A DNA stretch of 64,000 nucleotides, from positions 930,001 to 994,000 of the forward strand of contig NZ_AHWA01000004.1 of NCBI RefSeq assembly GCF_000247645.1, written 5' to 3'. Made by a program: the position numbers and the translations under genes. The notes beneath the pieces are model-generated. The model ran no database searches and was not told the origin of the DNA. It worked only from the letters and a program-made list of their open reading frames with translations. Positions 9,488-53,117 of this stretch are shown piece by piece. The stretch comes from Salinibacterium sp. PAMC 21357. GTDB lineage: Bacteria > Actinomycetota > Actinomycetes > Actinomycetales > Microbacteriaceae. The first letter of the stretch is position 1; every line of letters begins with the position of its first letter.

Positions 9488-9524
9488 AAAAAGGCGGGCC
9501 GGATGCCGCAGCACCCGACCCGCC
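9488..9524 (-). terminator. Rho-independent terminator of the opp operon
   Basis: On the minus strand a 14-bp near-perfect stem (GGCGGGTCGGGTGC / GCATCCGGCCCGCC) with a TGCG loop is followed by TTTTT. It lies 30 bp after the stop codon of the substrate-binding protein gene. Confidence 0.85.
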
Positions 9525-9553
9525 CTAATCACTTCAATTCAGATCGTCAGACC

Positions 9554-11257: not shown

Positions 11258-11311
11258 ACCGTTCCTTACTCTGTGGGGTGAATGGGGGAAAAGTTGCGGT
11301 GTTTGTTCGCT

Positions 11312-16958: not shown

Positions 16959-17040
16959 TGACCCATTATCGTGGCCAATGTTTTGGGGCGCGCTGCTCGT
17001 TCGACGAACTTGGACACGACAGCGAAATTGACAGCGAAGT

Positions 17041-17058
17041 TAGTATGCGCGCATACTA
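17041..17058. promoter_or_regulatory. Perfect 18-bp palindromic operator
   Basis: TAGTATGCGCGCATACTA is a perfect palindrome ending 5 bp before the ATG of the first gene of an operon that ends in a MarR regulator gene. It covers the likely -10 (CATACT or TACTAT), with TTGACA at 17028-17033 as the -35. Its position is ideal for blocking RNA polymerase. MarR autoregulation through this site is inferred. Confidence 0.7.
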
Positions 17059-17063
17059 TATCC

Positions 17064-17486: not shown

Positions 17487-17890
17487 GCGGGTGGCTTGGT
17501 GTTGTCTCGGCCGCTCACGTGCGGCGCGGCATCCACCTTGGAATTGCCCAAATCAGCCATGGCAAACGCGGGCCGCTTGCTCGCATGAAGGCCGGCGATA
17601 CCCTCGTCTACTACTCTCCTGTTGAATCGCTCGGAGACGTCATTCCGCTTCGCGAGTTCACTGCCATCGGCGTTATCGCCGATGACGAAATTTGGGAGGC
17701 AGACGAAGGCTCGTTTAGGCTATTCCGGCGTCGCATCAAATACCTCTCCCTGCGCCCCGTTCCACTGACAGACGTGCGTGACAGGCTTCATCTCACGGCG
17801 GAGCCAAACTGGGGATACCAGCTCAGGCGCGGACTCGTTCCGCTCGACGAGCACGATCTCGACATCATCCGTGAAAGCGTGATCCAATGA
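17483..17890 (+). CDS. EVE domain protein (UPF0310)
   Basis: 135-residue stand-alone EVE domain of the PUA-like fold. Recognisable family sequence: WLGVVSAAHVRRGIHLGIAQISHGKRGPLARM, GDTLVYYSPVESLGD, FTAIGVIADDEIWE and FRRRIKYLSL, ending with GYQLRRGLVPLDEHDLDIIRESVI. EVE domains bind modified DNA bases or RNA, and stand-alone members have no settled role. It overlaps both neighbours by 4 nt, so its level is tied to the SRPBCC and MarR proteins. Confidence 0.9.
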   Translation: MSGWLGVVSAAHVRRGIHLGIAQISHGKRGPLARMKAGDTLVYYSPVESLGDVIPLREFTAIGVIADDEIWEADEGSFRLFRRRIKYLSLRPVPLTDVRDRLHLTAEPNWGYQLRRGLVPLDEHDLDIIRESVIQ

Positions 17891-18336
17891 CCGAATCGCT
17901 CGAGACAATGCATCCGGATCCCACCACCAGCCTTGGCCTGGCGCTCTGGCAAGTGACGAACCAGTGGCAGCGCCAGGTACGCGCCACCCTAAAGCCTTAC
18001 GACTTGACCCAGGTGCAATTCGCGCTGTTGGCATCCCTTACGTGGCTTGGAAACGCCGCCCCCGTCACCCAGCATGCTCTTGCCGAGCAGGCCGGCACAG
18101 ATCCCATGATGACGTCCCAGGTCCTTCGCAATCTGGAGTCAAAGGGTTACGTCACCCGATCCCCGCACCCCTCCGACGGCCGCGCGATGGTAGTCGCGGT
18201 TACCAAGGAAGGCGCGGCGCTCGCCAACCGTGCAACCCCCGCAGTCGAAGCCGCCGACAACGACTACTTCGGTGCGCTCGATCCCCAGCTTCGCTCATCA
18301 TTCTTGAGAAGCCTGCACGAGCTGGCGGACCGGTAG
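17887..18336 (+). CDS. MarR-family transcriptional regulator
   Basis: 149-residue winged-helix regulator. Helices LTQVQFALLASL and TQHALAEQAGTDPMMTSQVLRNLESKGYV form the recognition region, and the wing holds RSPHPSDGRAMVVAVT, matching the family pattern RxxxxxDxRxxxVxLT. As last gene of the SRPBCC-EVE-MarR unit, it probably represses its own operon through the palindrome at 17041-17058. The ligand may be hydrophobic, given the SRPBCC partner (inference). Confidence 0.85.
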   Translation: MTESLETMHPDPTTSLGLALWQVTNQWQRQVRATLKPYDLTQVQFALLASLTWLGNAAPVTQHALAEQAGTDPMMTSQVLRNLESKGYVTRSPHPSDGRAMVVAVTKEGAALANRATPAVEAADNDYFGALDPQLRSSFLRSLHELADR

Positions 18337-18420
18337 GGGTGAGCCCTGCAATTCGCAGTGATGGCGTCACCGCGGTGCGCTACTTTCGACAGGTTAGCGT
18401 GATCGAGCACAGTTCCGCGC

Positions 18421-18455
18421 CCTAGGTTTTTATCGCTGGGTAGGCGAAACCTAGG
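18421..18455. terminator. Hairpin between convergent genes
   Basis: CCTAGGTTT (18421-18429) pairs perfectly with AAACCTAGG (18447-18455) around a 17-nt loop. It overlaps the stop codon of the DUF1905 gene and lies between the convergent marR and DUF1905 genes. No T-run; a weak bidirectional terminator or mRNA 3'-end structure. Confidence 0.35.
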
Positions 18456-18732
18456 TCGACCGTTCTGTGAGGTGCACATTAACAACGTCACCTATCTGCT
18501 TGCCGACCAGTTTTCTCAGCGCGGCATTCAACGAGAGGAAGTGACCGTTCTCACCTGAGGGCATCAGGGTCGCGCTGAACGAATGGCCGTCCATCGTGCC
18601 GGAGACTTTCACCGGATTGCCTGTGCCGAGAAGCGCCTTCGAGTCAGGCATGAACACGACCGTCCATGACGCGGGCATAGCCGGATGGACAAGTGGGCCT
18701 GCGAAATGGAGATCGAGCGCGCGGTTTGTCAT
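18451..18732 (-). CDS. DUF1905 domain protein
   Basis: 93 residues covering one DUF1905 domain: DLHFAGPLVHPAMPASWTVVFMP, GTGNPVKVSGTMDGHSFSATLMPSGENGHFLSLNAALRKLVGKQIGDVVNVHL. The domain is a small beta-barrel of unknown activity that often sits beside YdeI-like proteins. It is the second gene after an alpha/beta hydrolase, with an ATGA overlap at 18729-18732. Confidence 0.8.
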   Translation of the reverse strand: MTNRALDLHFAGPLVHPAMPASWTVVFMPDSKALLGTGNPVKVSGTMDGHSFSATLMPSGENGHFLSLNAALRKLVGKQIGDVVNVHLTERST

Positions 18733-19523
18733 GACCAGATCCTGCCCACGAAGTTTGCAAGTTCAGAGGCCATAGAGGCAGGCTCCCATTCATGTTGGGC
18801 CCCCGGCACTCTCTTCCATTCGGCGCCGGGGATAGCAGCGACGATCGACTCGGCTGCCGGAACCATTACCTCGTCGTAGCTCTGCTCGCCCACGAGTGCG
18901 ATTACCGGTACACGGATCGGAGTAAACAGTTCGGCGAGGGAAGCCGATTCCGCCCAGGCCAGCGAGTCCGCATCGGCTTGGAGACTGCCCGCTTGGTCGA
19001 TCATTGCCGGGATACTCTTCACGATTTCTAAGATTTCTGGTGGCATGTCTGCCATATAGAGATTCAGTGCACCCTCAAGGTCGTTGTCCCCGATGAGTCC
19101 CCGCAAAGAGTCAGCAAGCTCACGAGAGCCGCCGTTTGGCGGAGCCAGCGGCGTCTCCCACAGCGCCAGCCCAGCAACGGGCAGACCGCTCGCGGCAGCG
19201 TAGAGCGCGAGTGAGCCGCCGGAAGAGTGCCCGCACAGCACGACGCCATCTCCGGCTGAATCGACAGCCTCGATCAAGGCCGCGAGGGCGAGCATCTCCC
19301 GCTCGAGGCCGAGGGGGCCAGCCACCATGCTCTCGCCTCGGCCAAGCCGATCGTAGACGACTGCTTTCACGCCATAGTGGCCGAGCAATTCTGCCGTCTC
19401 CGTCGTCGTGAAATCAATCTCGCGCCACGGCCCTGCTCCGGCCACGAAGATGACGATCGGACCGTCGCCGTAACGGTCGAACGCTACCCGGTCGCCCGCG
19501 GCTGTTTCAACGAATTCCGTCAC
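18729..19523 (-). CDS. Alpha/beta hydrolase
   Basis: 264 residues. The oxyanion-hole region is VIFVAGAGPWREID, the nucleophile elbow LCGHSSGGSLAL, a likely acid lies in PVIALVGEQSYDEV, and the catalytic His in PGAQHEWEPASMA near the C terminus. It is transcribed away from a TetR regulator through a shared region with a large inverted repeat, so TetR control is likely. The substrate is unknown. Confidence 0.8.
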   Translation of the reverse strand: MTEFVETAAGDRVAFDRYGDGPIVIFVAGAGPWREIDFTTTETAELLGHYGVKAVVYDRLGRGESMVAGPLGLEREMLALAALIEAVDSAGDGVVLCGHSSGGSLALYAAASGLPVAGLALWETPLAPPNGGSRELADSLRGLIGDNDLEGALNLYMADMPPEILEIVKSIPAMIDQAGSLQADADSLAWAESASLAELFTPIRVPVIALVGEQSYDEVMVPAAESIVAAIPGAEWKRVPGAQHEWEPASMASELANFVGRIWS

Positions 19524-38630: not shown

Positions 38631-39179
38631 TCACCCACGCAACCATATTCCGTCCACTAGACGATAGACGATCCGGTGGTGTTTTCGGTCCGATGATCCT
38701 TGCCAGAACTCGACGTGCTCAGCCTTCAGTCGCCACAGAACCCAGCCGTCTGGGTCAGCATTCTCCCGCGCTGCCGCATCTCGCAATGCAAAGTCAGCGT
38801 CGCTATCGGCTCGGCTTGCTTCTACTACCGGTCCTCTCACCCGTATGGCGCGCACAAGCGGTTGCCACCAGAAGTTGAGCGCTGCGGCAGGATGCGCGGC
38901 AAGTTGGATCCCTTTAGCGCTGGCTCGGGGGCCAGCGAATGCCCAGCCCCGATCATCCACATCCTTGAGGATGAGGGTTCTCGCATCGGGAGTGCCCTCA
39001 GCATCCACGGTAGCGAGAGTCATCGCCAATGGTTCCTCCACCGAGGCTTCGAGCGCGCCGTCGAGCCACTCATAAAAGAGAGTCGCCGGGTCTGCGGGCA
39101 GCGCCGCTCGGTCAAGGGCGGGACTTGTGCCCGAGAGTGTGGGGATCGCCCGCAGCTTTGCGGCCGTGTCGCTCGTCAT
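38631..39179 (-). CDS. Pyridoxamine 5'-phosphate oxidase-like flavoprotein
   Basis: 182-residue FMN-binding split-barrel protein of the PdxH group: EEPLAMTLATVDAEGTPDARTLILKDVDDRGWAFAG, ASAKGIQLAAHPAAALNFWWQPLVRAIRVRGPV, and C-terminal EHVEFWQGSSDRKHHRIVYRL. It is about 30 residues shorter than typical PdxH, mainly in the central region, so oxidase activity is not certain. It lies 19 bp downstream of a PLP-dependent aminotransferase gene, which fits a role in PLP supply. Confidence 0.8.
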   Translation of the reverse strand: MTSDTAAKLRAIPTLSGTSPALDRAALPADPATLFYEWLDGALEASVEEPLAMTLATVDAEGTPDARTLILKDVDDRGWAFAGPRASAKGIQLAAHPAAALNFWWQPLVRAIRVRGPVVEASRADSDADFALRDAAARENADPDGWVLWRLKAEHVEFWQGSSDRKHHRIVYRLVDGIWLRG

Positions 39180-39198: not shown

Positions 39199-40524
39199 TC
39201 ACGCCAATTCTGCTGTCAGCACCGCGTCGTAAATCTCCATCGCCTCAGCGATTTCGGCGGGCGTGACAACGCACGGTGGCAATACGTGGATGCGGTTTTC
39301 TGACACAAAGGGCAGCAGCCCGCGCTCCACCAGGCCAGCACGAATGCGCCCCATCGTCGCGGCCGCAACGGGTTCGCGCGTGCCCCGGTCAGTGACGAGT
39401 TCCAGGGCCCAGAACACTCCGCGACCGCGCACCTCGCCGATCGACGGATGACGCTCGGCGAGCGCGTGCAGTGCTGGCCCGAGGTGGTTCTCCGAGATAT
39501 CACGCACGTGCTCAAGAATGCCTTCGGAGGCAATGGTGTCGAGCGAGGCCACAATGGTGGCGGCAGCGAGCGGATGCCCCGAATACGTCAATCCACCCGG
39601 GAACACCCGGTCGTTGAAGAAGGCTGCAATCGGGTCGTCGATAATCACACCGCCGACGGGAACATAGCCCGAGTTCACGCCCTTGGCGAAGGTGATGAGG
39701 TCGGGCCGCACGTCGAAGGCGTCGAACGCAAACCACTCACCGGTGCGCCCAAAGCCACACATCACTTCGTCGAAGATCAGCAGGATGCCGTGCTGATCAC
39801 ACAGTTGGCGAACCCCGGCGAGGTAGCCGGCCGGTGGCAACAGGATGCCCGGAGTTCCCGGCACCGGTTCGAGCAGCACCGCCGCAATCGACTCGGCGCC
39901 CTCCGCTTCAATCACTCGCCGCAAATGCTGCAGCGCCCGTTCGCTCTCTTGCTCGGGCGTCGTCGCCCAGAACTCGGAGCGATACAGATACGGCCCGAAG
40001 AAGTGCACGTGCCCGCGCGCGAACTCGTTCGGGATGCGGCGCGGATCACCCGTGGCCACGATGCTGCTGCCGGTGTTGCCGTGATACGACCGGTATGCCG
40101 AAAGAATCTTGTCGCGCCCGGTGTAGAGCCGCGCCATCCGCATCGCATTCTCGTTGGCGTCTGAGCCGCCGTTCGTAAAGAACACGCGATTGAAGCCCTC
40201 GGGTGCAATCGCTGCCAGACGTTTGGCTGCCTCACCACGGGTCACGTTGGCCGTCGGCGGTGAGATCGTCGCGAGCAGCTGAGACTGCACCCGGATAGCT
40301 TCGAGCAGGGCCGGATGCTGGTGCCCCAGATTCACGTTGACGTGCTGGCTAGAGAAGTCGAGATATTCATTTCCGGCGTGATCCCAGACGCGGGTGCCGA
40401 GCCCACTCTTGATGCTCACGGCGGCAGCATGCGCGGGAGTCTGCGCCGACCACGAATGAAAGATGTGGGCCTGATCTAGTTCGAGCGCGTAGGCGTCGAG
40501 GTCTCGGGAATCGTGCTCGGTCAT
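39199..40524 (-). CDS. Class III PLP-dependent aminotransferase
   Basis: 441-residue omega-amino acid:pyruvate/2-oxoglutarate transaminase type. The PLP phosphate-binding region is FFTNGGSDANENAM (115-128), the aspartate pairing with the pyridine nitrogen lies in LIFDEVMCGFGRTG (Asp252), and the Schiff-base lysine is in FAKGVNSGY (Lys281). Downstream of an amidohydrolase-based pathway that yields beta-amino acids, beta-alanine or 3-aminoisobutyrate is a reasonable amino donor (inference). It is separated from the transporter operon by a terminator and a tandem repeat. Confidence 0.85.
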   Translation of the reverse strand: MTEHDSRDLDAYALELDQAHIFHSWSAQTPAHAAAVSIKSGLGTRVWDHAGNEYLDFSSQHVNVNLGHQHPALLEAIRVQSQLLATISPPTANVTRGEAAKRLAAIAPEGFNRVFFTNGGSDANENAMRMARLYTGRDKILSAYRSYHGNTGSSIVATGDPRRIPNEFARGHVHFFGPYLYRSEFWATTPEQESERALQHLRRVIEAEGAESIAAVLLEPVPGTPGILLPPAGYLAGVRQLCDQHGILLIFDEVMCGFGRTGEWFAFDAFDVRPDLITFAKGVNSGYVPVGGVIIDDPIAAFFNDRVFPGGLTYSGHPLAAATIVASLDTIASEGILEHVRDISENHLGPALHALAERHPSIGEVRGRGVFWALELVTDRGTREPVAAATMGRIRAGLVERGLLPFVSENRIHVLPPCVVTPAEIAEAMEIYDAVLTAELA

Positions 40525-40547
40525 GACGCTGGCCCTTCAGAGTGAAT

Positions 40548-40651
40548 ACGCGGTGCTGATGTGAAACGGGTACTGCGAGCGAAAGTGGTGCTGCACGTGA
40601 CGCGGTGCCGACGTGAAACGCGTGCTGCGAGTGAAACTCGTGGCGCAAGAA
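40548..40651. repeat. Tandem duplication of a 52-bp unit
   Basis: Two imperfect copies (40548-40599, 40600-40651) start with ACGCGGTGC and share GTGAAACG, CTGCGAG and GAAA blocks at the same spacing. They lie directly upstream of the aminotransferase gene and downstream of the transporter terminator, so they may hold its promoter and regulator sites. Confidence 0.7.
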
Positions 40652-40656
40652 AACGA

Positions 40657-40686
40657 ATGCCGCCCTCACGAGCGTAAGGGCGGCAT
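40657..40686 (-). terminator. Terminator of the NMT1-type transporter/hydantoinase operon
   Basis: Perfect 10-bp stem ATGCCGCCCT/AGGGCGGCAT with a 10-nt loop, 25 bp after the substrate-binding protein stop. It is followed on the minus strand by the T-rich TCGTTTTCTTG. Confidence 0.75.
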
Positions 40687-40710
40687 CCGACTAACGATTA
40701 TTCAGTGCGA

Positions 40711-41861
40711 CTAGTTGCCGCCCTCAAGGAGGGTGACGTCGATCGGGCTAAAGTCGGCACCGGTGGTGTCGACACCGTCTGCCTCGAGTTCTTCGAGTGC
40801 CTTCATGATCCAGTCGTTCGACCAGGCGGCTGCCGGCGGTGCCTCGGTGATGGGGCTCGCGCCTGTTTCGTTGACAGCGCTGATGGCACCCTCAACCGTG
40901 CGGTCCCAGGCGGCTTCGTCGATAACACCGATGCCGTTGTCGGCCGGCCAGATCAGCTTGTTGGTTTCGTTGACCATCCACAGTTCGTGGCTGGGGCCCC
41001 AACCGGAACCGGCAGCAACAGTACCCTCGGCAGCAGACTCGGGGTTCTCAGCCGAGTAGATCCAGCCCTTGACGACAGCCTTGAGGAAGGCAACCGTGGT
41101 GTCCTGGTAATCCTCGTCGCTGTCAAGACGCTCAGTGTCGGCCCAGATTGCGTCCTGGAGCATCGCGCCAACCGTGTCTTCGTAGCTGATGACGTTAAAG
41201 TCTTCAGGCTGGTACAGCTCACCAGTGTCTGGATCGGTCGACTCAAGTAGCTGAGCGTACTCGTTGTAGGTCATCGCCTGAGCTGCATCGATGTCGCCCT
41301 GCAAGAAGGCGTTCATGTTGAAGTCCTGCGTGATGATCTGCACAGTCGACGAGTCGAGTCCTTCAGCAGCCATGGCCGCGAAGATTTCCCACTCGTTTCC
41401 GAAGCCCCAGGAACCGATCTTCTTGCCCTCGAAGTCGGCGACCGAGTCAATCCCCGAGTCGGCCCACGAGACCTGAAGCGTGCCCGACGTTTGGAAAATC
41501 TGCGCGATGTTGGTGAGGTTAGCGCCCTGCTCAATCGAGCCGAGAACCTTCGGAACCCAGGCAACGGCATAGTCGACGTCGCCGTTGGCGAGAGCGTCTT
41601 GCGGAACGATGTCGCCGCCCGACGGGATGATCTCTACGTCAAGGCCCTCTTCTTCAAAGAAGCCCTGATCGGCTGCGGCAAAGTAACCGGCGAACTGTCC
41701 CTGTGGGAGCATTGGAGCTGGAGCTTCACTTCGGTGAGGCCGTCAGCGGATTCCGAGGAACCGCTGTCACCCCCATCGCCCGTGGAGCATGCTGCGAGGA
41801 GAACCGCTGCCGTTACGGCAAACGCTCCGGCCGCAAGGGTGCGGCGTTTGGTGAACTTCAT
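40711..41861 (-). pseudogene. NMT1/THI5-type ABC substrate-binding lipoprotein, apparently frameshifted
   Basis: The signal peptide and lipobox LAAC are read from ATG 41861 to LTEVKLQLQ; the protein then continues in another frame from LPQGQFAGYFAAADQGFFEEEGLDVEIIPSGGDIVPQDAL. Restoring one base at about 41709-41713 (turning TG back to TGG, a Trp) gives a normal 383-residue SBP of the NMT1/THI5 (pyrimidine/riboflavin/taurine-like) group. The permeases and ATPase of its own system lie upstream in the same operon. The exact repair of a conserved Trp makes a sequencing error more likely than a dead gene. Confidence 0.8.
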
Positions 41862-41923
41862 GTCAGACCTTCCAGATTCACGGTGCAAGTGGATACTGCT
41901 GGTAGAGCTGGTGGAGCTTGTTG

Positions 41924-42772
41924 TTATCGAGAACCTCCCGTCGGAACACGCCGCAGCACGAGTCGTTCTAGTGCGAGCGTCGCAAGATAGAAGAGCAGGC
42001 CGAGAGCAATGGATGCCCCCACATAGGCCCAGGCTCGGGAGTAGGCACTCGAAGCGGCCGAGGTCGCGATCAAGCTACCGAGACCTCCGCGCGGTCCGCC
42101 GAAGTATTCGGCAACAAGGGCCGAAATTACGGCAAGCGATGAGGCGATGCGAATGCCGGTCAGGATGAACGGGCGCGCGGTTGGCAGTGTGAGCGAGCGC
42201 AACATCTGCCCCGAGTTCGCCGCATAGGCCTTCATGAGGTCACGGTGCACCGGCTTAGTTTGGCGAAAGCCGCGCAGCGTGTTGATGAAGATCGGCACGA
42301 ACGAGGCGATCGCGGCAATGGCTTGACGACCGAACTGGCTGTCGGCCCCGAACATCGAGTTGAGCACGGGAGCGAGAGCAACGATGGGCACAACGGCGAG
42401 GGCTGCAACGATGGGGGCACTCATCTGATCGGCGATTCGCCACCGGGCTGCAATCGCTGCGAGCACGATGCCGACCAGCGAACCGACGAGCAGCCCGAGC
42501 AGGCTGTTGGTTCCGGTGAGCACTGTCGCCGAGACGACCGCAGGCCAGAACTCGACAAGTTCGGCCACGATGGAGGTGGGGCTTGGCAGCAGGTAATCAT
42601 CGACCCCGCCAACGGTGACGAGCAGTTGCCAGATGCCGAGAACGAGCAGCCCGAACGAGATCGGTGCCACAATGCGCAGCGTCGATTCTGTTCTGGGACT
42701 CCACCCTTTGCTCCGACGTGCCCCCGTTCCTGACCGGCCGTTGACGATGGCGTTTGCTGATGTGGCTGTCAT
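41924..42772 (-). CDS. ABC transporter permease (nitrate/taurine/pyrimidine type)
   Basis: 282-residue permease with six hydrophobic segments. The conserved cytoplasmic loop is RDLMKAYAANSGQMLRSLTLPTARPFILTGIRIASSLAVISALVAEYFGG. N-terminal features are APISFGLLVLGIWQLLVTVGGVDDYLLPSPTSIVAELVEF, the SsuC/ThiX-type pattern. It overlaps the ATPase gene by 4 nt (42769-42772). It works with the second permease gene of the operon. Confidence 0.9.
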   Translation of the reverse strand: MTATSANAIVNGRSGTGARRSKGWSPRTESTLRIVAPISFGLLVLGIWQLLVTVGGVDDYLLPSPTSIVAELVEFWPAVVSATVLTGTNSLLGLLVGSLVGIVLAAIAARWRIADQMSAPIVAALAVVPIVALAPVLNSMFGADSQFGRQAIAAIASFVPIFINTLRGFRQTKPVHRDLMKAYAANSGQMLRSLTLPTARPFILTGIRIASSLAVISALVAEYFGGPRGGLGSLIATSAASSAYSRAWAYVGASIALGLLFYLATLALERLVLRRVPTGGSR

Positions 42773-43665
42773 CGGGTGTCCACTCCCCGCGCCCCGCGCG
42801 GTTCGTCTGCGGTGCCATCCGCTGCTCCGCCGTGCAGCGCTTCGCGTACTTCTGTGACCATTTCGAAGAAGGATGACTCTTCACGCAAGTTATCGGAGCG
42901 GTCCTCGCGACCAGCAACTGCATTCAGTCGCATGGGCACGATCTGGCTAATTCGGCCAGGGCGAGGCGACATGACGACGACGCGGTCGGAGAGGAACACG
43001 GCTTCGGGAATCGAGTGCGTCACGAACACAACAGCAGCTCCGGTGTCGGCGGCAATGCGCACGAGATCGGTTTGCATCTTCTCGCGAGTCATTTCGTCGA
43101 GCGCACCGAACGGCTCATCCATCAGCAACAGTCGCGGCTGTTCGGCCAACGATCGCGCAATGGCTACCCGCTGCTGCATTCCGCCCGAGAGCTGGTCGGG
43201 AAACCGGTCGGCGAATTCTGTGAGACCAACCATGTCGAGCAGGTCGGCGACGCGAGCGCGACGAGCTGCGGATGCCACACCGTGCAATTCGAGCGGAAGC
43301 GCAACGTTCGCCGCCACCGTTCGCCACGGCAGCAAACCGGCCTGTTGGAACGCGATGCCGTAATCCTGGTCGAGTCGCGCCTGGGTTGTGGTCTTGCCGA
43401 ACACGGTTAGCTCGCCAGAAGTCGGGTCATCGAGGTCAGCGATGAGTCTCATGAGTGTTGACTTGCCACAGCCCGATGGGCCGATCAGGGAGACGAATTC
43501 CCCAGCCGAGACCGTGAGATCGATTGCTTCGAGGGCGTGGACCACACCGGTCGCGGTCTGAAACTGCTTGTTGACTCCGCGCACCGACACTGCCGCAGCA
43601 TCCATATCGCCTGCTGTCCGTTGCGCCTCAGTTAGTGCTGCGCTGTTTAGGATCTGGTCGCTCAT
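42769..43665 (-). CDS. ABC transporter ATP-binding protein (nitrate/taurine type)
   Basis: 298 residues. Walker A GPSGCGKST, Q-loop AFQQAGLLPWRTV, signature LSGGMQQRVAIARSL, Walker B LLLMDEPFGALD and switch His in FVTHSIPEAVFLSD, the TauB/SsuB pattern. The start at 43665 gives an ATGA overlap with the upstream permease gene (43662-43665); the longer open frame upstream is inside that gene. It has an unusual Ala/Gly/Asp-rich C-terminal tail. Confidence 0.9.
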   Translation of the reverse strand: MSDQILNSAALTEAQRTAGDMDAAAVSVRGVNKQFQTATGVVHALEAIDLTVSAGEFVSLIGPSGCGKSTLMRLIADLDDPTSGELTVFGKTTTQARLDQDYGIAFQQAGLLPWRTVAANVALPLELHGVASAARRARVADLLDMVGLTEFADRFPDQLSGGMQQRVAIARSLAEQPRLLLMDEPFGALDEMTREKMQTDLVRIAADTGAAVVFVTHSIPEAVFLSDRVVVMSPRPGRISQIVPMRLNAVAGREDRSDNLREESSFFEMVTEVREALHGGAADGTADEPRGARGVDTR

Positions 43666-44615
43666 GCGGCCTCCTCTGTTCGTCGGTAGTCCTTGAGAAT
43701 GATGCCGAGCAATGCCACCGAACCGGCCGCGACCAGTCCGAGAATGATGGCGCCGAAGATGGGTCCCCACGCTTTCTCAGGGTCACCGGATGCTTGGCCG
43801 GCAAATTGGATGAGCAGGCGACCGATGCCACCTTGAAGCCCGGTCGATACTTCAGCAACAACCGCGCCGATGACCGCATTCGCGGCTCCGAGTCGCAGGG
43901 CCGGCAAGAGGTACGGCACCGCAGCGGGAAAGCGCAGTTTTTTGAGCGTCGACCAATAGCCGGAGGCATAGGTCTCGAAGAGTTCCACGTGGATGCGGTC
44001 AGGAGACTGCAACCCTTTGAGCGCACCAACGGTGATCGGGAAGAACGCGAGGTAGCTCGCGATGAGCGCGACCGACATCCAGTCTTGCCATTCAAAGCTG
44101 CCGATCTCGACGCGTGATCCCCAACTCTTCACGACAGGCGCAAAGGCAATGAGGGGAACGGTTTGGCTGATCACGATCCACGGCAGCAGGCCGAATTCGG
44201 CCAGTCGCCAGCGCTGCATGAGCAGAGCAAAGCCGACTCCAACGACGACTCCAACGGCCCACCCTGCCGCGGCGATGCCGAGAGTGAGGAGTGCCGCAAG
44301 GGCTACGACAGCCCAGAGTGGAAGCGCACCGTCGGCTCGCGTTACGGGCTCGGCAAGTCGCACCATCATGTCCCACAGGTGAGGCATGGCCAGGTCGGTG
44401 GTTCGCGGAAGTACTCGAAGTTCGCCGATGAGCACGCCGTTGTCTGGACCGAAGAACTTGTAGCCCTCCCAGAGCAGCGCGATCGAAACGACCCCGGCGA
44501 TTCCCCAGAGGAAACCGGCCAGTAGCCGAGAGCGAGCCGGGTTGGCGACCGCGCCCGACGGTTTCTCGAGGCGGACGGCAACCTCCCCACGCTTATCGTT
44601 TCGGGTTGCCGTCAT
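43662..44615 (-). CDS. ABC transporter permease (second subunit)
   Basis: 317-residue permease related to the other subunit, with a longer N terminus and an extended first periplasmic loop (LLWEGYKFFGPDNGVLIGELRVLPRTTDLAMPHLWDMMVRLAEPV). The EAA-like loop is ELFETYASGYWSTLKKLRFPAAVPYLLPALRLGAANAVIGAVVAE. Two different permeases in one operon imply a heterodimeric channel. It follows the LLM gene by 4 bp. Confidence 0.9.
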   Translation of the reverse strand: MTATRNDKRGEVAVRLEKPSGAVANPARSRLLAGFLWGIAGVVSIALLWEGYKFFGPDNGVLIGELRVLPRTTDLAMPHLWDMMVRLAEPVTRADGALPLWAVVALAALLTLGIAAAGWAVGVVVGVGFALLMQRWRLAEFGLLPWIVISQTVPLIAFAPVVKSWGSRVEIGSFEWQDWMSVALIASYLAFFPITVGALKGLQSPDRIHVELFETYASGYWSTLKKLRFPAAVPYLLPALRLGAANAVIGAVVAEVSTGLQGGIGRLLIQFAGQASGDPEKAWGPIFGAIILGLVAAGSVALLGIILKDYRRTEEAA

Positions 44616-44619
44616 GTGC

Positions 44620-45636
44620 TTAGGCCTTCGCCGTCACGGTTTCGGTGAGAGCCGGGATTACCGTCTCGCCGTAGACCCGCATGGTCTCTTCTTTGTTGTC
44701 GTGCTGCAGGTAGCCGGCGAACTGATCGACACCAAGCTCGCGCAGTTTTTCGAGCTTCTCGATGTGCTGCTCAGCGGTTCCCATGATGCAGAACCGGTCG
44801 ACGATCTCGTCGGGCACAAAGGCCGCGTGCGTGTTGCCCGCTTGGCCGTGCTGGTTGTAGTCGTAGCCTTCGCGCTTCTCGATGTAGTCGGTGAGGGCCT
44901 TCGGTACGTCTCCATCAGAGCCGTACTTCTTGACGATGTCGGCGACGTGGTTTCCCACCATTCCGCCGAACCAGCGGCACTGGTCGCGCATGTGCTCGAT
45001 GTCGTCACCGATGTACATCGGCGCTGCGACACAGAACTTGATCGACATCGGGTCTCGCCCGACAGCCTCAGCAGCGTCGCGCACCTTCTTGATCATCCAG
45101 GCAGCAATGTCGAGGTCAGCGAGCTGCAGGATGAAGCCATCTCCGACTTCACCGGTGAGCTTGAGGGCCAGCGGGCCGTAGGCCGCAACCCACATCTCAA
45201 GCTCTGAGCCTTTGCTCCACGGCAACTGCAACTGTGCTCCGCCATATTCGACCGAACGCGAGTTCGCGAGTTCGCGGATGACGTGAATCGACTCCCGCAG
45301 ATCCTTCAACGTCGTGGGCTTGCCGTTAGTCACGCGCACCGCCGAGTCGCCGCGGCCAATGCCACAAACGGTGCGGTTGCCGTACATCTCGTTGAGGGTG
45401 GCGTACGTGGAGGCCGTGACCGTCCAATCACGGGTGGCCGGGTTGGTCACCATCGGTCCGACGATTACCTTGCGGGTCTCGGCCAAGATCTGGCTGTAGA
45501 TCACATAGGGCTCTTGCCACAGGATGTGCGAATCGAAGGTCCAGACGTAGGTGAAGCCGTGCGCCTCCGCGAGCTTCGCGAGTTGAACGGTTCGTGCTGA
45601 CGGCGGGTTGGTCTGAAGTACTGCTCCGAAGTCCAT
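44620..45636 (-). CDS. LLM-class flavin/F420-dependent oxidoreductase
   Basis: 338-residue luciferase-like TIM-barrel enzyme: MDFGAVLQTNPPSARTVQLAKLAEAHGFTYVWTFDSHI, VIVGPMVTNPATRDWTVTASTYATLNEMYGNRTVCGIGRGDSAVRV, and GEVGDGFILQLADLDIAAWMIKKV. It resembles the family sometimes listed as TIGR03842 (CPS_4043), whose cofactor may be FMN or F420. The start at 45636 was chosen over ATG 45648 because GAGGAG precedes it and it begins the family sequence. Placed between the hydantoinase and transporter genes, it may perform the first reduction or oxygenation of the imported ring (inference). Confidence 0.85.
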   Translation of the reverse strand: MDFGAVLQTNPPSARTVQLAKLAEAHGFTYVWTFDSHILWQEPYVIYSQILAETRKVIVGPMVTNPATRDWTVTASTYATLNEMYGNRTVCGIGRGDSAVRVTNGKPTTLKDLRESIHVIRELANSRSVEYGGAQLQLPWSKGSELEMWVAAYGPLALKLTGEVGDGFILQLADLDIAAWMIKKVRDAAEAVGRDPMSIKFCVAAPMYIGDDIEHMRDQCRWFGGMVGNHVADIVKKYGSDGDVPKALTDYIEKREGYDYNQHGQAGNTHAAFVPDEIVDRFCIMGTAEQHIEKLEKLRELGVDQFAGYLQHDNKEETMRVYGETVIPALTETVTAKA

Positions 45637-45670
45637 GGGGCTCCTCATTCGTGGTGGAAGGTCGGGAAAG

Positions 45671-45707
45671 TGCGGCGTCCGCTGGAGGTTAGCCAGCGGA
45701 TGCCGCA
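45671..45707 (-). other. Intercistronic hairpin between hydA and the LLM gene
   Basis: A 15-bp stem (TGCGGCGTCCGCTGG with CCAGCGGATGCCGCA, one G-T pair) and a 7-nt loop. No U-run follows, so it may act in mRNA processing, stability or partial termination inside the operon. Confidence 0.6.
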
Positions 45708-45717
45708 GCGGAACCGG

Positions 45718-47181
45718 TTAGGTCAGGTACTGAGTGAGGCCGCGCTTCATGAAGCGGCCATCGCCCTTCGTTCCGAGATATTGATCGCCATCGACAATGA
45801 CCTTGCCGCGCGAGATGACGGTGTCAACATGACCGTCGATCTCGAAGCCTTCCCAGGCAGCGTGGTCCATGTTCATGTGGTGCTTCTTGCCGGTGGGGTT
45901 GCCGTTATCGTCAATCGGCATACCGATCGACGTGTGGCCCTGCGGGTCGTAGATGACGATGTCGGCGTCGGCTCCGGGCTGGATGACACCCTTGCGTCCG
46001 TAGATACCGAACATACGAGCGGGGGTGGTGCTCGTCAGTTCAACCCATCGCTCGAGCGTGAGCTCGCCGGTGACAACACCTTGATACATGAGGTCCATGC
46101 GGTGTTCGACGGTTCCCATGCCGTTGGGGATCTTGCGGAAGTCCGCAAGGCCCAACTCTTTTTGGTCCTTCATGCAGAACGGGCAGTGGTCGGTGGAGAC
46201 CATCTGCACATCGTTGGTGCGCAGCGACTGCCACATGGCATCCTGATGACCCTCTTCGCGCGAACGAAGCGGAGTCGAGCACACCCACTTGGCGCCTTCG
46301 AAGTGACCGTACTGCTCACTCTGCGCGCCGAGCTGTTCTTCGAGGCTCAAGTAGAGGTACTGCGGGCACGTCTCAGCGAAGACATTCTGACCACGGTCAC
46401 GAGCGGTGGCGATCTGTTCGACCGCTTGCTTCGCACTGACGTGAACGATGTAGAGCGGGGCGCCGGTGAGCTTCGCGAGCATGATTGCTCGGTGAGTGGC
46501 TTCCTCTTCCATCTCCCAGGCACGAGCAACACCGTGATAGTACGGGTCGGTCTTGCCCTGCTCCACGAGCTGCTCGGCAAGGACGTCGATGACCGGGCCG
46601 TTCTCGGCGTGCATCATCGTCATCAAGCCGGTGTCGCGAGAGACCTGCATTGCCTTGAGGATCTGTGCGTCATCCGAGTAGAAAACGCCCGGATACGCCA
46701 TGAACATCTTGAAGCTTGTGATGCCCTCGTCTGGCAGCTTCTCCATCGCCTTCAGCGACTCCGGAGTGACGTCGCCAACAATCTGGTGAAAGCCGTAGTC
46801 GATCGCGCAGTTGCCCGAGGCTTTGCCGTGCCATGCAGCGAGTGAATCTTGGATGCGCTCGCCAAAAGTCTGCACTGCGAAGTCGATGATCGAGGTCGTG
46901 CCGCCCCACGCCGCAGCGCGAGTGCCCGTCTCGAAGGTGTCGATTGCCGCGGTGCCGCCGAAGGGCAGCTCCATGTGCGTGTGGGCGTCGATGCCACCAG
47001 GAATGACGTACTTTCCCGTGGCATCAATGACCTTGTCGACGGATGCCGCAATGTCGGTTCCAAAAAGCGTGCTGCCGGGTGACAGCACAGCCTTGATTAC
47101 TTCGCCGTCGATCAGTACGTCAGCGGGGGCGCGCCCCGTTGAGCTGACAACTGTTCCGCCGGAAATGAGAGTGGTGGCCAT
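45718..47181 (-). CDS. hydA: Dihydropyrimidinase/D-hydantoinase
   Basis: 487-residue cyclic amidohydrolase with a binuclear metal centre: HxH in IDAHTHMEL (His67, His69), the carbamylated lysine in TSFKMFMAYPG (Lys158), His191 in MMHAEN, His247 in VHVSA, and the catalytic Asp331 in STDHCPF. It opens dihydropyrimidine or hydantoin rings to N-carbamoyl amino acids. The adjacent upstream gene encodes the amidohydrolase that would remove the carbamoyl group. Full length for the family. The annotated ATG has AGGAGCGAATC upstream. Confidence 0.92.
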   Translation of the reverse strand: MATTLISGGTVVSSTGRAPADVLIDGEVIKAVLSPGSTLFGTDIAASVDKVIDATGKYVIPGGIDAHTHMELPFGGTAAIDTFETGTRAAAWGGTTSIIDFAVQTFGERIQDSLAAWHGKASGNCAIDYGFHQIVGDVTPESLKAMEKLPDEGITSFKMFMAYPGVFYSDDAQILKAMQVSRDTGLMTMMHAENGPVIDVLAEQLVEQGKTDPYYHGVARAWEMEEEATHRAIMLAKLTGAPLYIVHVSAKQAVEQIATARDRGQNVFAETCPQYLYLSLEEQLGAQSEQYGHFEGAKWVCSTPLRSREEGHQDAMWQSLRTNDVQMVSTDHCPFCMKDQKELGLADFRKIPNGMGTVEHRMDLMYQGVVTGELTLERWVELTSTTPARMFGIYGRKGVIQPGADADIVIYDPQGHTSIGMPIDDNGNPTGKKHHMNMDHAAWEGFEIDGHVDTVISRGKVIVDGDQYLGTKGDGRFMKRGLTQYLT

Positions 47182-47216
47182 GATTCGCTCCTCTGCGATG
47201 TCGTGTGCCTACTGTT

Positions 47217-47241
47217 CCCCAGGCGCCAAGACAGCCTGGGG
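47217..47241 (-). other. Intercistronic hairpin between the amidohydrolase gene and hydA
   Basis: Perfect 8-bp stem CCCCAGGC/GCCTGGGG with a 9-nt loop in the 73-bp gap. No U-run; possible processing or attenuation element. Confidence 0.5.
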
Positions 47242-47254
47242 CTGACGTTGTTGC

Positions 47255-48100
47255 TTACTTAGGGATCGACAGGTAGGCGTCGGGGCGACGGTCGCGGTAG
47301 AACTGCCAGTCGTCGCGCATCTCCTGCACGAGGTCCATGTCGAGGTCGCGAATCATGATCTCTTCGTCGGTGCCCGAGCCACGCTCGCCGACGAAGTTTC
47401 CGCGGGGGTCGATGACCTGGCTGGTGCCGTAGAAGTCAACGGCTTCGTCGCCGTACTCGTTGTCTTCGAGGCCGACACGGTTGGGCTGAAGCACGAAGTA
47501 GCCATTGGCCACTGCTGCTGCGGGGCCTTCAACCTCCCACAGGCGGTTGGAGAGCCCGGGCTTCGTAGCGTTGGGGTTGAAGACAATTTCTGCACCGTTG
47601 AGGCCGAGCTCGCGCCATCCCTCAGGGAAGTGGCGGTCGTAACAAATGTGAACGCCAACCTTGCCGACGGCGGTGTTGAACATCGGGAACCCGAGGTTGC
47701 CGGGGGTGAAGTAGAACTTCTCCCAGAACTTGTCGAGGTGAGGAATGTGATGCTTGCGGTATGAACCGAGGTTCGTGCCATCCGAATCGACAACGACGGC
47801 GGTGTTGTAGTAAACACCCGTCATTGCTTCTTCGTAGATCGGCAGAATCATGACCATGTCGAGCTCTTTAGCGAGCGCCTGAAAACGCTTAACGATCGGG
47901 CCATCAACGGGCTCGGCGTAGCGGTAATACTTCTTGTCTTGAGTGATTCCGAAGTAAGGGCCGTAAAAAAGCTCCTGGAAGCAGATGATCTGGGCGCCTT
48001 GATCCTTAGCATCACGAGCGAACTGCTCGTGCTTCTGAATCATCGACTCCTTGTCGCCTGTCCAAGTGGTCTGAGTGATTGCTGCGCGAACTGTCGTCAT
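47255..48100 (-). CDS. Nitrilase-family N-carbamoyl amidohydrolase (beta-ureidopropionase type)
   Basis: 281-residue nitrilase-superfamily enzyme. The Glu-Lys-Cys triad is visible as Glu43 in QELFYG, Lys116 in YRKHHIP, and Cys153 in HICYDRHFPEG. It would hydrolyse N-carbamoyl-beta-alanine (or a related N-carbamoyl amino acid) to the amino acid, CO2 and ammonia. The start at 48100 was chosen because AGGAGGCACC precedes it and the family sequence begins there; the frame is open further upstream. It is the first gene of the hydA/LLM/ABC operon. Confidence 0.9.
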   Translation of the reverse strand: MTTVRAAITQTTWTGDKESMIQKHEQFARDAKDQGAQIICFQELFYGPYFGITQDKKYYRYAEPVDGPIVKRFQALAKELDMVMILPIYEEAMTGVYYNTAVVVDSDGTNLGSYRKHHIPHLDKFWEKFYFTPGNLGFPMFNTAVGKVGVHICYDRHFPEGWRELGLNGAEIVFNPNATKPGLSNRLWEVEGPAAAVANGYFVLQPNRVGLEDNEYGDEAVDFYGTSQVIDPRGNFVGERGSGTDEEIMIRDLDMDLVQEMRDDWQFYRDRRPDAYLSIPK

Positions 48101-48340: not shown

Positions 48341-49126
48341 TTAGGACGAACCCTCTGAAGTCCAGACCGGGCGTGCCTGAAACGAACGAACGCGCAGTGG
48401 CTGCTGTGCCGCCGCAAACACCGTAGTCACCGCGCTCGCGTACATCACCGAGTCCGGCGCACGATCCGCCAGCCCCTCAAAACCGGCCGCCGCGAGCAGC
48501 CCATCCTGTAGGTGGACCACTTCAGCAGGCTGCAGCGGCCACGGCTCGTGGAGATTGCGACAGTAGATCGTGCGTCCACCGTGAGTCTCGTGAAAACCCC
48601 AGCGCGCCGTCAAAAACCGCGCAAGAGGGTCAGCCGCGAGCGCAACACTGGCGGCCCGATCGTCGATCGGTCGCACAATGATGTGGGACGCGGCATCCGG
48701 TCGACCGTACCGTCGAGTTTTATAAGCGATCTGCCCGTCACGCTGCCCGATCTTCATCGATGCCCACTGGTAGGGCAAGCCAAACGCGGCGCGCGCGGTG
48801 AGCACCGGAATCAAGTGCGAGGCCTCGAGCGAGAGAAAAACCACACCTCGGCGACCGTCAGCATCGATCGAATACAGCCGCACGTTGACCTCGGGAAAAT
48901 CACCGAGCCACGGGATGCTTGGCCCACCAAAAAAGGAACTTTGCGACATCTGAAACGCGATGAGTCCGACCCACGTGCTGCCGTCGATCGTGTCAGGACG
49001 GCACCCGGCAGGCAGGTGCGGAGCGACGATAGCGGGATCGACTTTCCAGTGCAGAAACGTGACTTCGCTCCAGCGCTGCCGCAGAACGGCGGAGCTGGTC
49101 AGGGGAGGCGCTTCAGCGGGAATCAT
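48341..49126 (-). CDS. DUF2071 (YqjF-like) protein
   Basis: 261 residues of the DUF2071 family (acetoacetate decarboxylase-like fold): LRQRWSEVTFLHWKVDPAIVAPHLPAGCRPDTIDGSTWVGLIAFQMSQSSFFGGP, FPEVNVRLYSIDADGRRGVVFLSLEASH, and LPYQWASMKIGQRDG. Function unsettled. It is co-directional with and 13 bp downstream of hspR, so it may be the last gene of the heat-shock operon. Confidence 0.85.
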   Translation of the reverse strand: MIPAEAPPLTSSAVLRQRWSEVTFLHWKVDPAIVAPHLPAGCRPDTIDGSTWVGLIAFQMSQSSFFGGPSIPWLGDFPEVNVRLYSIDADGRRGVVFLSLEASHLIPVLTARAAFGLPYQWASMKIGQRDGQIAYKTRRYGRPDAASHIIVRPIDDRAASVALAADPLARFLTARWGFHETHGGRTIYCRNLHEPWPLQPAEVVHLQDGLLAAAGFEGLADRAPDSVMYASAVTTVFAAAQQPLRVRSFQARPVWTSEGSS

Positions 49127-49139
49127 CGCACTAGTGACA

Positions 49140-49574
49140 TCAGCGGGGCAGTTGGTTGTCGCGTTTAGTGAAGGGGCGCCACAACACGACCTGGTCGGTG
49201 CGTTCGCCTCTAGTTCCGGCTCTCAGCGAGATAACTTCGCCGGCGGCACCGGCCGCAAATACCCGTCGGCCGGGCTTGGCGAGCAGTTCATCCGCCAGCG
49301 CAGCCTCTAGCTCATGCACTCGCGAACTCAACTCGGCCACCCGATTTTCAAGATCGAGAATGCGTTTGATGCCTTCAAGGTTGAGGCCTTCAGCGCCGAG
49401 CGCGGCAATCTCTCGCAACTGCATCACATCGCGCATGGAATAGCGCCGCGACCGACCGCTGGTTCTCGTGGGAGACACGAGACCCAGACGGTCGTACTGT
49501 CGCAGCGTCTGCGGATGCATGCCCGCCAGCTCTGCCGCGACGGCAATAGCAAAAGCGGGCGTGGACTCATCCAT
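49140..49574 (-). CDS. hspR: HspR, MerR-type heat-shock repressor
   Basis: 144-residue MerR-family regulator: IAVAAELAGMHPQTLRQYDRLGLVSPTRTSGRSRRYSMRDVMQLREI, a coiled-coil linker (NRVAELSSRVHELEAALADEL) and a C-terminal tail. In actinobacteria HspR represses the dnaK operon by binding HAIR elements with DnaK as co-repressor. It is encoded 5 bp after dnaJ, the normal order, and HAIR-like repeats occur upstream of dnaK (53153-53173 and 53216-53236). Confidence 0.93.
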   Translation of the reverse strand: MDESTPAFAIAVAAELAGMHPQTLRQYDRLGLVSPTRTSGRSRRYSMRDVMQLREIAALGAEGLNLEGIKRILDLENRVAELSSRVHELEAALADELLAKPGRRVFAAGAAGEVISLRAGTRGERTDQVVLWRPFTKRDNQLPR

Positions 49575-49579
49575 TGGTG

Positions 49580-50575
49580 CTACCTCCTGGCTTTAGCCAT
49601 CAGGTCATCCCGCGGGTTTTCCGCGGGCATTGCTGACGTAAACGCTTCAAGGTGCTCACGGGCGGAGTCAGGGATATGGCTCGGCACTGCCACTTGAACT
49701 TCGGCGAGCAGATCTCCGGTCGCTTTTGTCGTGGCAACGCCGCGGCCTTTGACGCGCAACACGCGCCCGCTGGGAGTTCCGGCGGCAACCTTCAGCTTCA
49801 CCGGCGCACCATTTAAGGTGGGAACCTCAATAGTGGCGCCGAGTACAGCCTCGGCAAAGGTCACCGGAACAAGAACGCGCAAGTTAATGCCGTCACGCTC
49901 AAATACCGGATGCTTGCGAACCGTTACCGTCAAAACCAGATCTCCGGCTTCCCCGCCGTTCGGACTCGGCTCCCCTTTAGCCTTGAGACGGATCTTTTGC
50001 CCGTCGCTGACTCCTGCAGGAATCTTGACGTTCATCGGACGACCGCCGGCCGGCTGCAGTTTGATCGTTTCGCCATTGATCGCGGTAACGAAATCAAGCG
50101 TGGTGTTCGCGGCTAAGTCGCGGCCCTTCGCGGGGCCCCCACGAAAACCGGGACCGCCGCCAGGACCAGCCTGGCCACCGAACATGCCACCGAGGAGGTC
50201 CTCAAAGCTGGCACCCTGCTGCCCGCCGCCGTAGCGCTGACCAGCACCGCCGCCAGCTCCGCCACCGAACATGCCACCGAAGACATCCTCGAAGCCGCCA
50301 GCTTGACCGCCTTGGCCGCCCGCTTGAAAGCGAGCACCGGAACCCATAGCTCGAACCTGATCGTATTCTTTACGCTGTTCAGGATCGGAAAGCACCGAGT
50401 GCGCTTCACTAATTTCTTTGAAGCGCGACTCGGCTTTCGGATTATCCGGATTGGAGTCCGGATGAAACTGGCGCGCGAGTTTACGATAGGTCTTTTTTAG
50501 TTCAGGGGCCGAGATATCTTTCGATACCCCGAGCACCTTGTAGAAGTCCTTATCGAACCAATCTTGGCTAGCCAC
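49580..50575 (-). CDS. dnaJ: DnaJ co-chaperone
   Basis: 331 residues. J domain (about 8-75) with HPD in RQFHPDSNPD, a long Gly/Phe-rich region (about 80-155), then two C-terminal peptide-binding domains (about 155-320, including VKIPAGVSDGQKIRLKAKGE). The zinc-finger Cys motifs (CxxCxGxG) are absent, so this is a type II (CbpA/DnaJ1-like) J protein. It stimulates DnaK ATPase activity. It is encoded 17 bp after grpE. Confidence 0.93.
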   Translation of the reverse strand: MASQDWFDKDFYKVLGVSKDISAPELKKTYRKLARQFHPDSNPDNPKAESRFKEISEAHSVLSDPEQRKEYDQVRAMGSGARFQAGGQGGQAGGFEDVFGGMFGGGAGGGAGQRYGGGQQGASFEDLLGGMFGGQAGPGGGPGFRGGPAKGRDLAANTTLDFVTAINGETIKLQPAGGRPMNVKIPAGVSDGQKIRLKAKGEPSPNGGEAGDLVLTVTVRKHPVFERDGINLRVLVPVTFAEAVLGATIEVPTLNGAPVKLKVAAGTPSGRVLRVKGRGVATTKATGDLLAEVQVAVPSHIPDSAREHLEAFTSAMPAENPRDDLMAKARR

Positions 50576-50592
50576 TACACGCCACCCCCGGC

Positions 50593-51248
50593 TTATTCAG
50601 TGGGGCCAGAGACAGCAACCTTCGCGGCACGCACAACGCGCTCACCAAGAATGTAGCCAGGCTCGATCACGTCAGCAATCGTGTTCTCGGTTGCCTCCGG
50701 ATCGTTCAGGTGCACAACGGCTTCGTGGAAAGCAGGATCAAAACGCTCACCCTTCTCACCAATCTTGCGCATACCGAATCGCTCGAAACTCGACTTAATC
50801 TTCTGAGACACCAAAGCCAATGGCGTTCCTTCGACGAGATCGCCGTGCTTGTCAGCACGATCGAGGTCATCGAGGGCCGGCAGCATTGAGCGCACCACAT
50901 CAGCGATGACAGCTTCACGGTTGGCAACCCGATCACGCTCAACGCGCGTGCGGAAGTTCACCAGCTCAGCCTGAGCTCGCAACATCTGATCGCGCATCTC
51001 GGCAACGAGGTCGCGGCTGGCGTCATCGAGAAGCTTCTGATCTTCCGGGCTCAACGCCGACTCCTCACCATCGTCACTCGCTTCGTCATCGATCAGGGCG
51101 TCGACCGTTTCGTCGACAGCTTCCGTGCCGTCAGCGGGTTGCCCCTCGGCTGCCGCAGAGTTCTCTGCAGCAGCCGAGTCGGCAGCACCGGCGTCGCCAG
51201 CATCTGGTTCGCCGTGATTTCGTCGCGGTTCTTGTTTTTGTCAGCCAT
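50593..51248 (-). CDS. grpE: GrpE nucleotide exchange factor, with apparent frameshift near its 5' end
   Basis: The conserved core starts at LSPEDQKLLDDASRDLVAEM and runs through LRAQAELVNFRTRVERDR and ALDDLDRADKHGDL to GYILGERVVRAAKVAVSGP. The acidic N-terminal tail is continuous upstream in the same frame (about 50 codons) but has no start codon before a TGA. An ATG at 51248, right after the dnaK stop, reads MADKNKNRDE and joins the tail if one A is restored in the GAAAT run at about 51217-51221, giving 218 residues. An alternative start at TTG 51054 would omit the tail. GrpE releases ADP from DnaK. A loss in this gene would be harmful, so sequencing error is likely. Confidence 0.85.

Positions 51249-53117
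<1,869 letters not shown>

Follow-up and report, generated by a model that had tools for sequence, protein, structure and literature searches.

Probable reductive pyrimidine catabolism in Salinibacterium with a luciferase-fold, putatively F420H2-dependent reductase in the place of dihydropyrimidine dehydrogenase

Two described routes of pyrimidine breakdown come closest to the system considered here. The reductive pathway (PydABC or PreTA) employs a dihydropyrimidine dehydrogenase (DPD), and in the Rut pathway the first protein to act on the pyrimidine is RutA, a flavin mononucleotide (FMN) monooxygenase with the fold of the luciferase-like monooxygenases (LLM). We analysed a window of 64,000 nucleotides (the whole stretch, positions 930,001 to 994,000 of contig NZ_AHWA01000004.1) from Salinibacterium sp. 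PAMC 21357 and an operon on its minus strand, at 48.1-39.2 kb. The operon shares with the reductive pathway a dihydropyrimidinase, a carbamoylase, an omega-aminotransferase and an importer, and in relatives also the methylmalonate-semialdehyde dehydrogenase MmsA. Where that pathway has DPD, none was found in this genome, and a luciferase-fold protein of family TIGR03842, which we propose to use F420H2, the reduced form of the rare, vitamin-like deazaflavin cofactor F420, stands instead. As in the Rut pathway, an LLM-fold protein would thus act first on the pyrimidine; unlike RutA, it is followed by a dihydropyrimidinase. We consider it likely that the operon serves reductive pyrimidine catabolism with an F420H2-dependent luciferase-fold reductase in the place of DPD, a system that would include import, hydrolysis, transamination and salvage of F420.

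Other precedents are more distant. Closest to the LLM in both sequence and fold is Mer, the F420-dependent methylene-tetrahydromethanopterin reductase, yet the two are only ~30% identical and Glu6 of Mer gives way to Val10. SSGG-03002 and NpsU, from the mureidomycin and napsamycin clusters, belong to antibiotic biosynthesis, not to catabolism. The available text of that report (PMC10714638) counts only 42 homologues of SSGG-03002, whose family probably differs from TIGR03842, set apart by the number of homologues and not by sequence; by analogy, the precedent would make the proposed chemistry more plausible and its novelty slightly smaller. For uric-acid clusters of Chloroflexota, the accessible part of PMC12507026 likewise suggests an LLM as the substitute for a DPD-like reductase, there in a pathway for a cyclic ureide. 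That putative F420-dependent yanthine reductase, a suggestion only and compared here by its description, has another substrate and another gene set. A 2021 review of F420 describes most other luciferase-like F420 enzymes of bacteria as having an unknown role, and in its available text there is no mention of uracil, hydantoin, dihydropyrimidin-, auxotroph, salvage or uptake (PMC8498797). In the open-licence literature we found no F420-dependent reductase in pyrimidine catabolism.

The operon and the adjoining aminotransferase gene are laid out as follows, in the order of transcription:

47255..48100, minus strand: nitrilase-superfamily carbamoylase, probable beta-ureidopropionase (PF00795, CN_hydrolase)
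45718..47181, minus strand: dihydropyrimidinase / D-hydantoinase (TIGR02033, 539 bits, cut-off 393; closest solved structure 4kqn, E 2e-130)
44620..45648, minus strand: LLM oxidoreductase of TIGR03842 (603 bits, cut-off 295), proposed F420H2-dependent pyrimidine reductase
43662..44615, minus strand: ATP-binding cassette (ABC) permease 1 (PF00528)
42769..43665, minus strand: ABC ATPase (PF00005)
41924..42772, minus strand: ABC permease 2 (PF00528)
40711..41861, minus strand: NMT1/THI5-type substrate-binding protein, frame broken near 41.7 kb (PF09084, E 8e-39 for the mature part)
40654..40689, minus strand: terminator-like hairpin between the binding-protein and aminotransferase genes (16-pair stem, 4-base loop, T-rich tail; a consensus match only)
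39199..40524, minus strand: class III (omega-) aminotransferase, proposed beta-alanine / 3-aminoisobutyrate aminotransferase (PRK06062, 690 bits, cut-off 472)

All of these genes were confirmed by family matches, which bears out the original prediction, made from the letters of the window, that import through two permeases, ring opening, decarbamoylation and neighbouring transamination are encoded together. It had also placed the LLM where DPD is missing and called for a search of the whole genome; that search found no DPD, the single PF01180 match being dihydroorotate dehydrogenase (TIGR01036, 356 bits, cut-off 200). PreA-type DPD (NF006183) exceeded its cut-off in none of 246 sampled genomes of the class (best 141 bits vs 335) and in 2 of 14 controls. 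Likewise, RutA passed its cut-off of 498 in none of 30 genomes including this one, with a best score elsewhere of 410 bits (G323); of 14 controls, 2 passed. The search did not extend to other rut genes. The LLM most likely occupies the place of DPD in an otherwise reductive pyrimidine pathway. Because DPD is missing, a dihydropyrimidinase follows and further evidence points to F420, the first step would most likely be that of the reductive pathway, reduction of C5=C6 of uracil or thymine, with F420H2 as the hydride donor.

The gene cluster is widely conserved. We kept the best 80 loci from named genomes, out of at least 587 confirmed candidates; among these the closest are from Salinibacterium, with LLM proteins 98-99% identical and the gene order kept. 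Dihydropyrimidinase was present in all 80 and accompanied by both carbamoylase and LLM in 78, the two loci lacking carbamoylase (L060, L067) both stopping at a contig end; aminotransferase occurred in 59 and the binding protein in 57. The first clustering of neighbours was dominated by antisense and spurious frames, and only clusters with recognised translations were used; for the cofD, cofC, cofE, MocR, MmsA, NCS1 and importer groups the family scan was run on one member each. In the class, 64 genomes of the 246 sampled carried LLM over the cut-off, and the next score was far lower. Twenty of the 55 class carriers outside Microbacteriaceae were opened: all had carbamoylase, 19 dihydropyrimidinase (it is absent in L283), 14 aminotransferase, 8 an ABC importer, 7 MmsA at 59% identity or more, and 5 an NCS1 permease. 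The MmsA neighbour in one relative (L037) matches TIGR01722 at 682 bits (cut-off 448), and an NCS1 neighbour matches PF02133. The arrangement of carbamoylase, dihydropyrimidinase and LLM in the 80 loci is far beyond chance. A MocR-type (GntR-PLP) regulator diverges from the operon in 43 of the 80 loci (for example at 6132-7724 of L048); the window holds no such gene, its only match being an antisense frame of 39 aa.

The LLM itself belongs to TIGR03842 (F420_CPS_4043), a family of type "hypothetical equivalog" in NCBIfam, with no assigned function. Its closest solved relative by sequence is the F420-dependent Mer 8qpm (E 8e-34). A search with its AlphaFold model (mean predicted local distance difference test, pLDDT, 81) returned Mer at Z 33-34, Adf at 30.7 and Fgd types at 28-29. 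On this predicted fold, the top 15 matches were all F420 enzymes, the best other match was 2i7g at Z 27.5, and RutA reached Z 24.5. To judge from its sequence, the LLM is not a Mer: the score against the Mer model TIGR03555 lies far under the cut-off (136 bits, cut-off 349), and the position of Mer Glu6, the residue mutated in entry 8qq8 and presumably catalytic, is occupied by Val10.

Direct linkage to F420 biosynthesis was seen in other bacteria. Five of 16 plasmid matches were opened. On a Leisingera plasmid, the operon cofG-cofH-cofD-cofC-cofE-npdG-LLM ends with the LLM (TIGR03842, 507 bits) and diverges from hydA and the genes for a Zn hydrolase, for an omega-aminotransferase (742 bits to the AptA model) and for both subunits of a transhydrogenase. 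The Zn hydrolase matches 8c46 at E 2e-189, which according to the available text of PMC10952681 is a characterised N-carbamoyl-beta-alanine amidohydrolase. BLASTP finds this hydrolase unrelated to the actinobacterial carbamoylase; therefore, two unrelated carbamoylases serve the same kind of cluster. In Paracoccus alcaliphilus, the same cof-npdG-LLM run (LLM at 503 bits to TIGR03842) adjoins an ABC importer, and no hydantoinase or carbamoylase is annotated within the 25 kb viewed. A Streptomyces plasmid match lies in an unannotated region, in which we identified carbamoylase, aminotransferase, dihydropyrimidinase and LLM by our own search. The two remaining plasmids are separate observations. 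In Caballeronia SBC2 (L122) only a remnant is left of a TIGR03842-like LLM; its neighbours are a Zn hydrolase, alanine dehydrogenase and transhydrogenase. Variovorax PBL-E5 (L123) has a more distant LLM, 34% identical and assigned to no family under the strict threshold, in a cofGHDCE-npdG cluster that also contains an amidohydrolase and a CN hydrolase, another F420 pathway without assignment.

Linkage to cofD recurs in Microbacteriaceae. Among 249 genomes of the family, 115 carried LLM and 107 cofD over the cut-off; 87 had both, 28 LLM only, 20 cofD only and 114 neither. In 76 of the 87 genomes with both, the two genes lay within 25 kb of each other (median 7.0 kb); in 10 they were on separate contigs, and in 1 they were far apart. 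We also tried npdG as a marker of F420 use, which no family genome carried over the cut-off (0 of 249) and which was uninformative there.

FO synthase (cofG), by contrast, was scarce. A search of 33 genomes gave a strong match in only 2 of 9 that bore cofD, a result that initially spoke against F420 and led us to an importer. Across the family, cofG was over the cut-off in 56 of 249 genomes; the 115 LLM carriers comprised 45 with cofD and cofG, 42 with cofD only, 1 with cofG only and 27 with neither, so that 69 lacked cofG. A BtuCDF-type importer lay within 6 kb of cofD in 41 of the 53 cofD genomes without cofG, vs 0 of the 54 with it. In 6 of the 12 misses the importer was elsewhere, and in G261, G272, G298, G394, G404 and G457 there was none; G388 and G457 are the misses on short contigs. 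The binding protein of the importer exceeded the cut-off in 70 of 249 genomes, none of which had cofG. FO synthase or importer was present in 108 of 115 LLM carriers vs 18 of 134 non-carriers (p 1e-41, counts that ignore kinship beyond the genus level), and never did one of the 249 genomes have both. Adding three importer matches under the cut-off and two broken ones raised these counts to 112 of 115 vs 19 of 134. By genus, with this relaxed importer set, 44 of 85 genera had both LLM and such access, none LLM only, 4 access only and 37 neither. In one genome without FO synthase (L148, 10095-13925), the importer genes overlap and run directly into cofD. The idea of an importer is itself not new, as NCBIfam names parts of it a putative F420-0 ABC transporter (TIGR03868, TIGR03869 and TIGR03873), and the importers of our organism and of relatives without FO synthase pass the first two cut-offs. 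NCBIfam gives F420-0 as the substrate; the position beside cofD suggests that FO may be one as well.

In the window's organism, no cofD, cofG or cofH was found in the genome, nor in 4 other sampled genomes of the genus. Its apparent F420 salvage locus (L260, G000:C3:98001-117000) encodes, at 8948-11860 and 16980-18910, the importer, CofE and an Fgd-family LLM. The importer matches TIGR03868 at 468 bits (cut-off 392) and TIGR03869 at 485 bits (cut-off 437), and its ATPase fits best to TIGR03873 at 342.5 bits, under the cut-off of 372. CofE, a protein whose role lies in F420, is encoded ~5 kb from the importer (PRK13294, 307 bits, cut-off 304; TIGR01916, 231, cut-off 181). The Fgd-family LLM near CofE matches TIGR03557 at 286 bits (cut-off 210) and stays under the Fgd equivalog cut-off. 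Because importer, CofE and Fgd-family LLM are all present, the organism would most simply be an F420 salvager.

The best-surviving alternative, which we nevertheless hold to be unlikely, keeps the pathway and its first reaction and lets NAD(P)H supply the hydride, either directly or by way of FMN; the F420 genes would be historical neighbours, and the cofactor would have been switched in lineages such as that of the window. The absence of cofD and cofH from all five Salinibacterium genomes speaks for it, as does the existence of LLM-fold enzymes that use NADH directly, such as the mycobacterial methylene-tetrahydrofolate reductase. On the other hand, no alignment column fully separates the LLM proteins of 37 cofD-bearing loci from those of 21 cofD-less ones, which argues against a switch of cofactor. 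Moreover, 25 of the 27 carriers without cofD or cofG have an importer orthologue of more than 300 bits, a 26th has it in two contig-end pieces, and our organism has retained CofE.

Catabolism of hydantoins or other cyclic ureides is a decidedly improbable alternative, in which the LLM would act on an upstream hydantoin-like compound or a substituted pyrimidine and the end product would be an alpha-amino acid. TIGR02033 does include hydantoinases, and NCS1 includes the hydantoin permease Mhp1. Furthermore, an Arthrobacter crystallopoietes enzyme accepts both hydantoins and dihydrouracils, according to the available text of PMC4690820. Yet a hydantoin needs no reductase, the omega-aminotransferases and MmsA (TIGR01722) in relatives' clusters fit beta-amino acids, and the Leisingera hydrolase is close to N-carbamoyl-beta-alanine amidohydrolase. 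We thus favour pyrimidines over hydantoins because relatives' clusters contain omega-aminotransferase, MmsA, NCS1 permeases and the carbamoyl-beta-alanine hydrolase.

It is very unlikely that the LLM works in reverse or on some other substrate, as an F420-reducing dehydrogenase or a xenobiotic reductase merely clustered with pyrimidine genes. The superfamily does contain F420-reducing dehydrogenases (Fgd, Adf); however, the pairing with two hydrolases is kept across the class and, with the other carbamoylase, in an alphaproteobacterium, and PreA-type DPD is missing from all 246 class genomes at its cut-off. An oxidative cleavage like that of RutA, in which an FMN-dependent LLM monooxygenase would open or hydroxylate the pyrimidine, belongs to the same superfamily and has RutA among the structural matches, but F420 enzymes score higher, the product of RutA would bypass a dihydropyrimidinase, the 23 families that the window LLM matches at E 0.001 do not include TIGR03612 and this genome has no RutA over the cut-off, all of which makes it highly implausible.

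Several observations weigh against the reading of the LLM as an F420H2-dependent pyrimidine reductase. In this genome the cofactor would depend on the proposed importer, as no cofD, cofG or cofH was found, and 20 family genomes with cofD and without LLM imply other uses of F420. At strict cut-offs seven genomes (G267, G294, G361, G394, G417, G457, G461) carry LLM without FO synthase or importer; 4 of them hold importer matches that are broken or under the cut-off, which leaves G394, G417 and G457 (98, 88 and 82% complete). The neglect of kinship in the co-occurrence counts belongs here too. The mechanism of Mer is not transferable to a protein in which, by alignment, Val10 replaces Glu6. The top solved match of the carbamoylase is N-carbamoylputrescine amidase, the TIGR02033 model does not tell dihydropyrimidinase from D-hydantoinase, and the window contains no MmsA. 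Finally, the open-licence literature yielded neither biochemistry nor a described function for TIGR03842, and the available text of PMC10714638 reports that no uracil-reducing activity of SSGG-03002 was detected in vitro.

With these points taken into account, the F420H2-dependent pathway would run as follows. The ABC importer, or in some relatives an NCS1 permease, would bring in a pyrimidine, as the neighbouring genes suggest. The LLM would transfer hydride from F420H2 to C5=C6, turning uracil into dihydrouracil or thymine into dihydrothymine; we infer the substrate from gene context and the F420 dependence from linkage and structure. By homology, dihydropyrimidinase would open the ring, and carbamoylase would release CO2, NH3 and beta-alanine or 3-aminoisobutyrate. 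Homology and the neighbours in relatives suggest that the aminotransferase would then form malonic or methylmalonic semialdehyde, which a methylmalonate-semialdehyde dehydrogenase, clustered in some relatives and not encoded in the window, would convert to acyl-CoA. The organism would probably import F420 through the BtuCDF-like transporter, add glutamates by CofE and reduce the cofactor with the Fgd-like enzyme.

The original prediction had supposed a first step unlike both the reductive and the Rut routes. The absence of RutA agrees with the latter half; the former half is not upheld, as the reaction is most likely the same reduction with F420H2 as donor. Its pyrimidine- or hydantoin-like substrate would narrow to a pyrimidine, and its flavin or F420 enzyme to an F420 enzyme: FMN is disfavoured because of the Leisingera and Paracoccus operons, the linkage to cofD and the salvage genes of this genome. 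It had called the system undescribed, and for TIGR03842 we indeed found no described function; what we propose, though, would be the known reductive pathway in a new form, with the same first step and another cofactor, for which the comparative evidence from genomes is good.

Details of the parts and their surroundings complete the description. The longest carbamoylase frame begins at 48220, and homology sets in just past the internal ATG at 48100. Among solved structures this protein is closest to N-carbamoylputrescine amidase 5h8i (E 1e-54), followed by fly beta-ureidopropionase 2vhh (E 1e-51), with which it shares 38 of 65 core residues; of the 33 residues comparable with both, 22 are identical to 2vhh and 18 to 5h8i. 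Between LLM and permease 1 there is a gap of 4 bases. The ABC ATPase frame extends to 43770, and with the start chosen by us, 43665, the ATPase overlaps both permeases by 4 bases. Signal peptide and mature part of the binding protein are in different frames; the break may be genuine or may have arisen in sequencing, and a relative (L032) has one frame. Because the terminator-like hairpin precedes it, the aminotransferase may have its own transcript; the hairpin scan overall gave 7 sites vs 7.8 in shuffles, that is, no excess. The closest solved structure to the aminotransferase is taurine:2-oxoglutarate aminotransferase 6jix (E 5e-102). Immediately 3' of its gene, at 38631-39179, a gene resembling pyridoxamine-phosphate oxidase (PRK05679, 135 bits, cut-off 129; under the pdxH cut-off) may serve its pyridoxal phosphate (PLP) cofactor. 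A DUF2071 gene immediately upstream of the operon (48341-49126) was considered as a member and rejected, being found in 3 of the 80 loci only; further upstream on the same strand, at 49140-53117, are genes for a MerR-type regulator, DnaJ, GrpE and Hsp70. The window has no match to MmsA, NCS1, cof genes or the F420 importer, whose ATPase finds there only other ABC ATPases at 26-35% identity.

In a wider claim, for and against which we see equal weight, TIGR03842 would be an F420H2-dependent uracil/thymine reductase and one main reason for the retention of F420 in many non-mycobacterial actinobacteria and in some Rhodobacterales. Some three fifths of the carriers in the family would build no deazaflavin ring of their own and obtain it from neighbours through the BtuCDF-like importer: as FO where CofD is kept, and as F420-0 where there is only CofE, as here. 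If true, one widespread LLM family would gain a specific substrate in primary catabolism, and there would be an explanation for how pyrimidines could be used by many actinobacteria in which DPD is missing. Since almost every carrier either synthesises FO or has the importer, and none of the 249 genomes combines the two, F420 may be a shared nutrient. For many bacteria of soil and sea, it would then be plain why they synthesise F420 or take it up.

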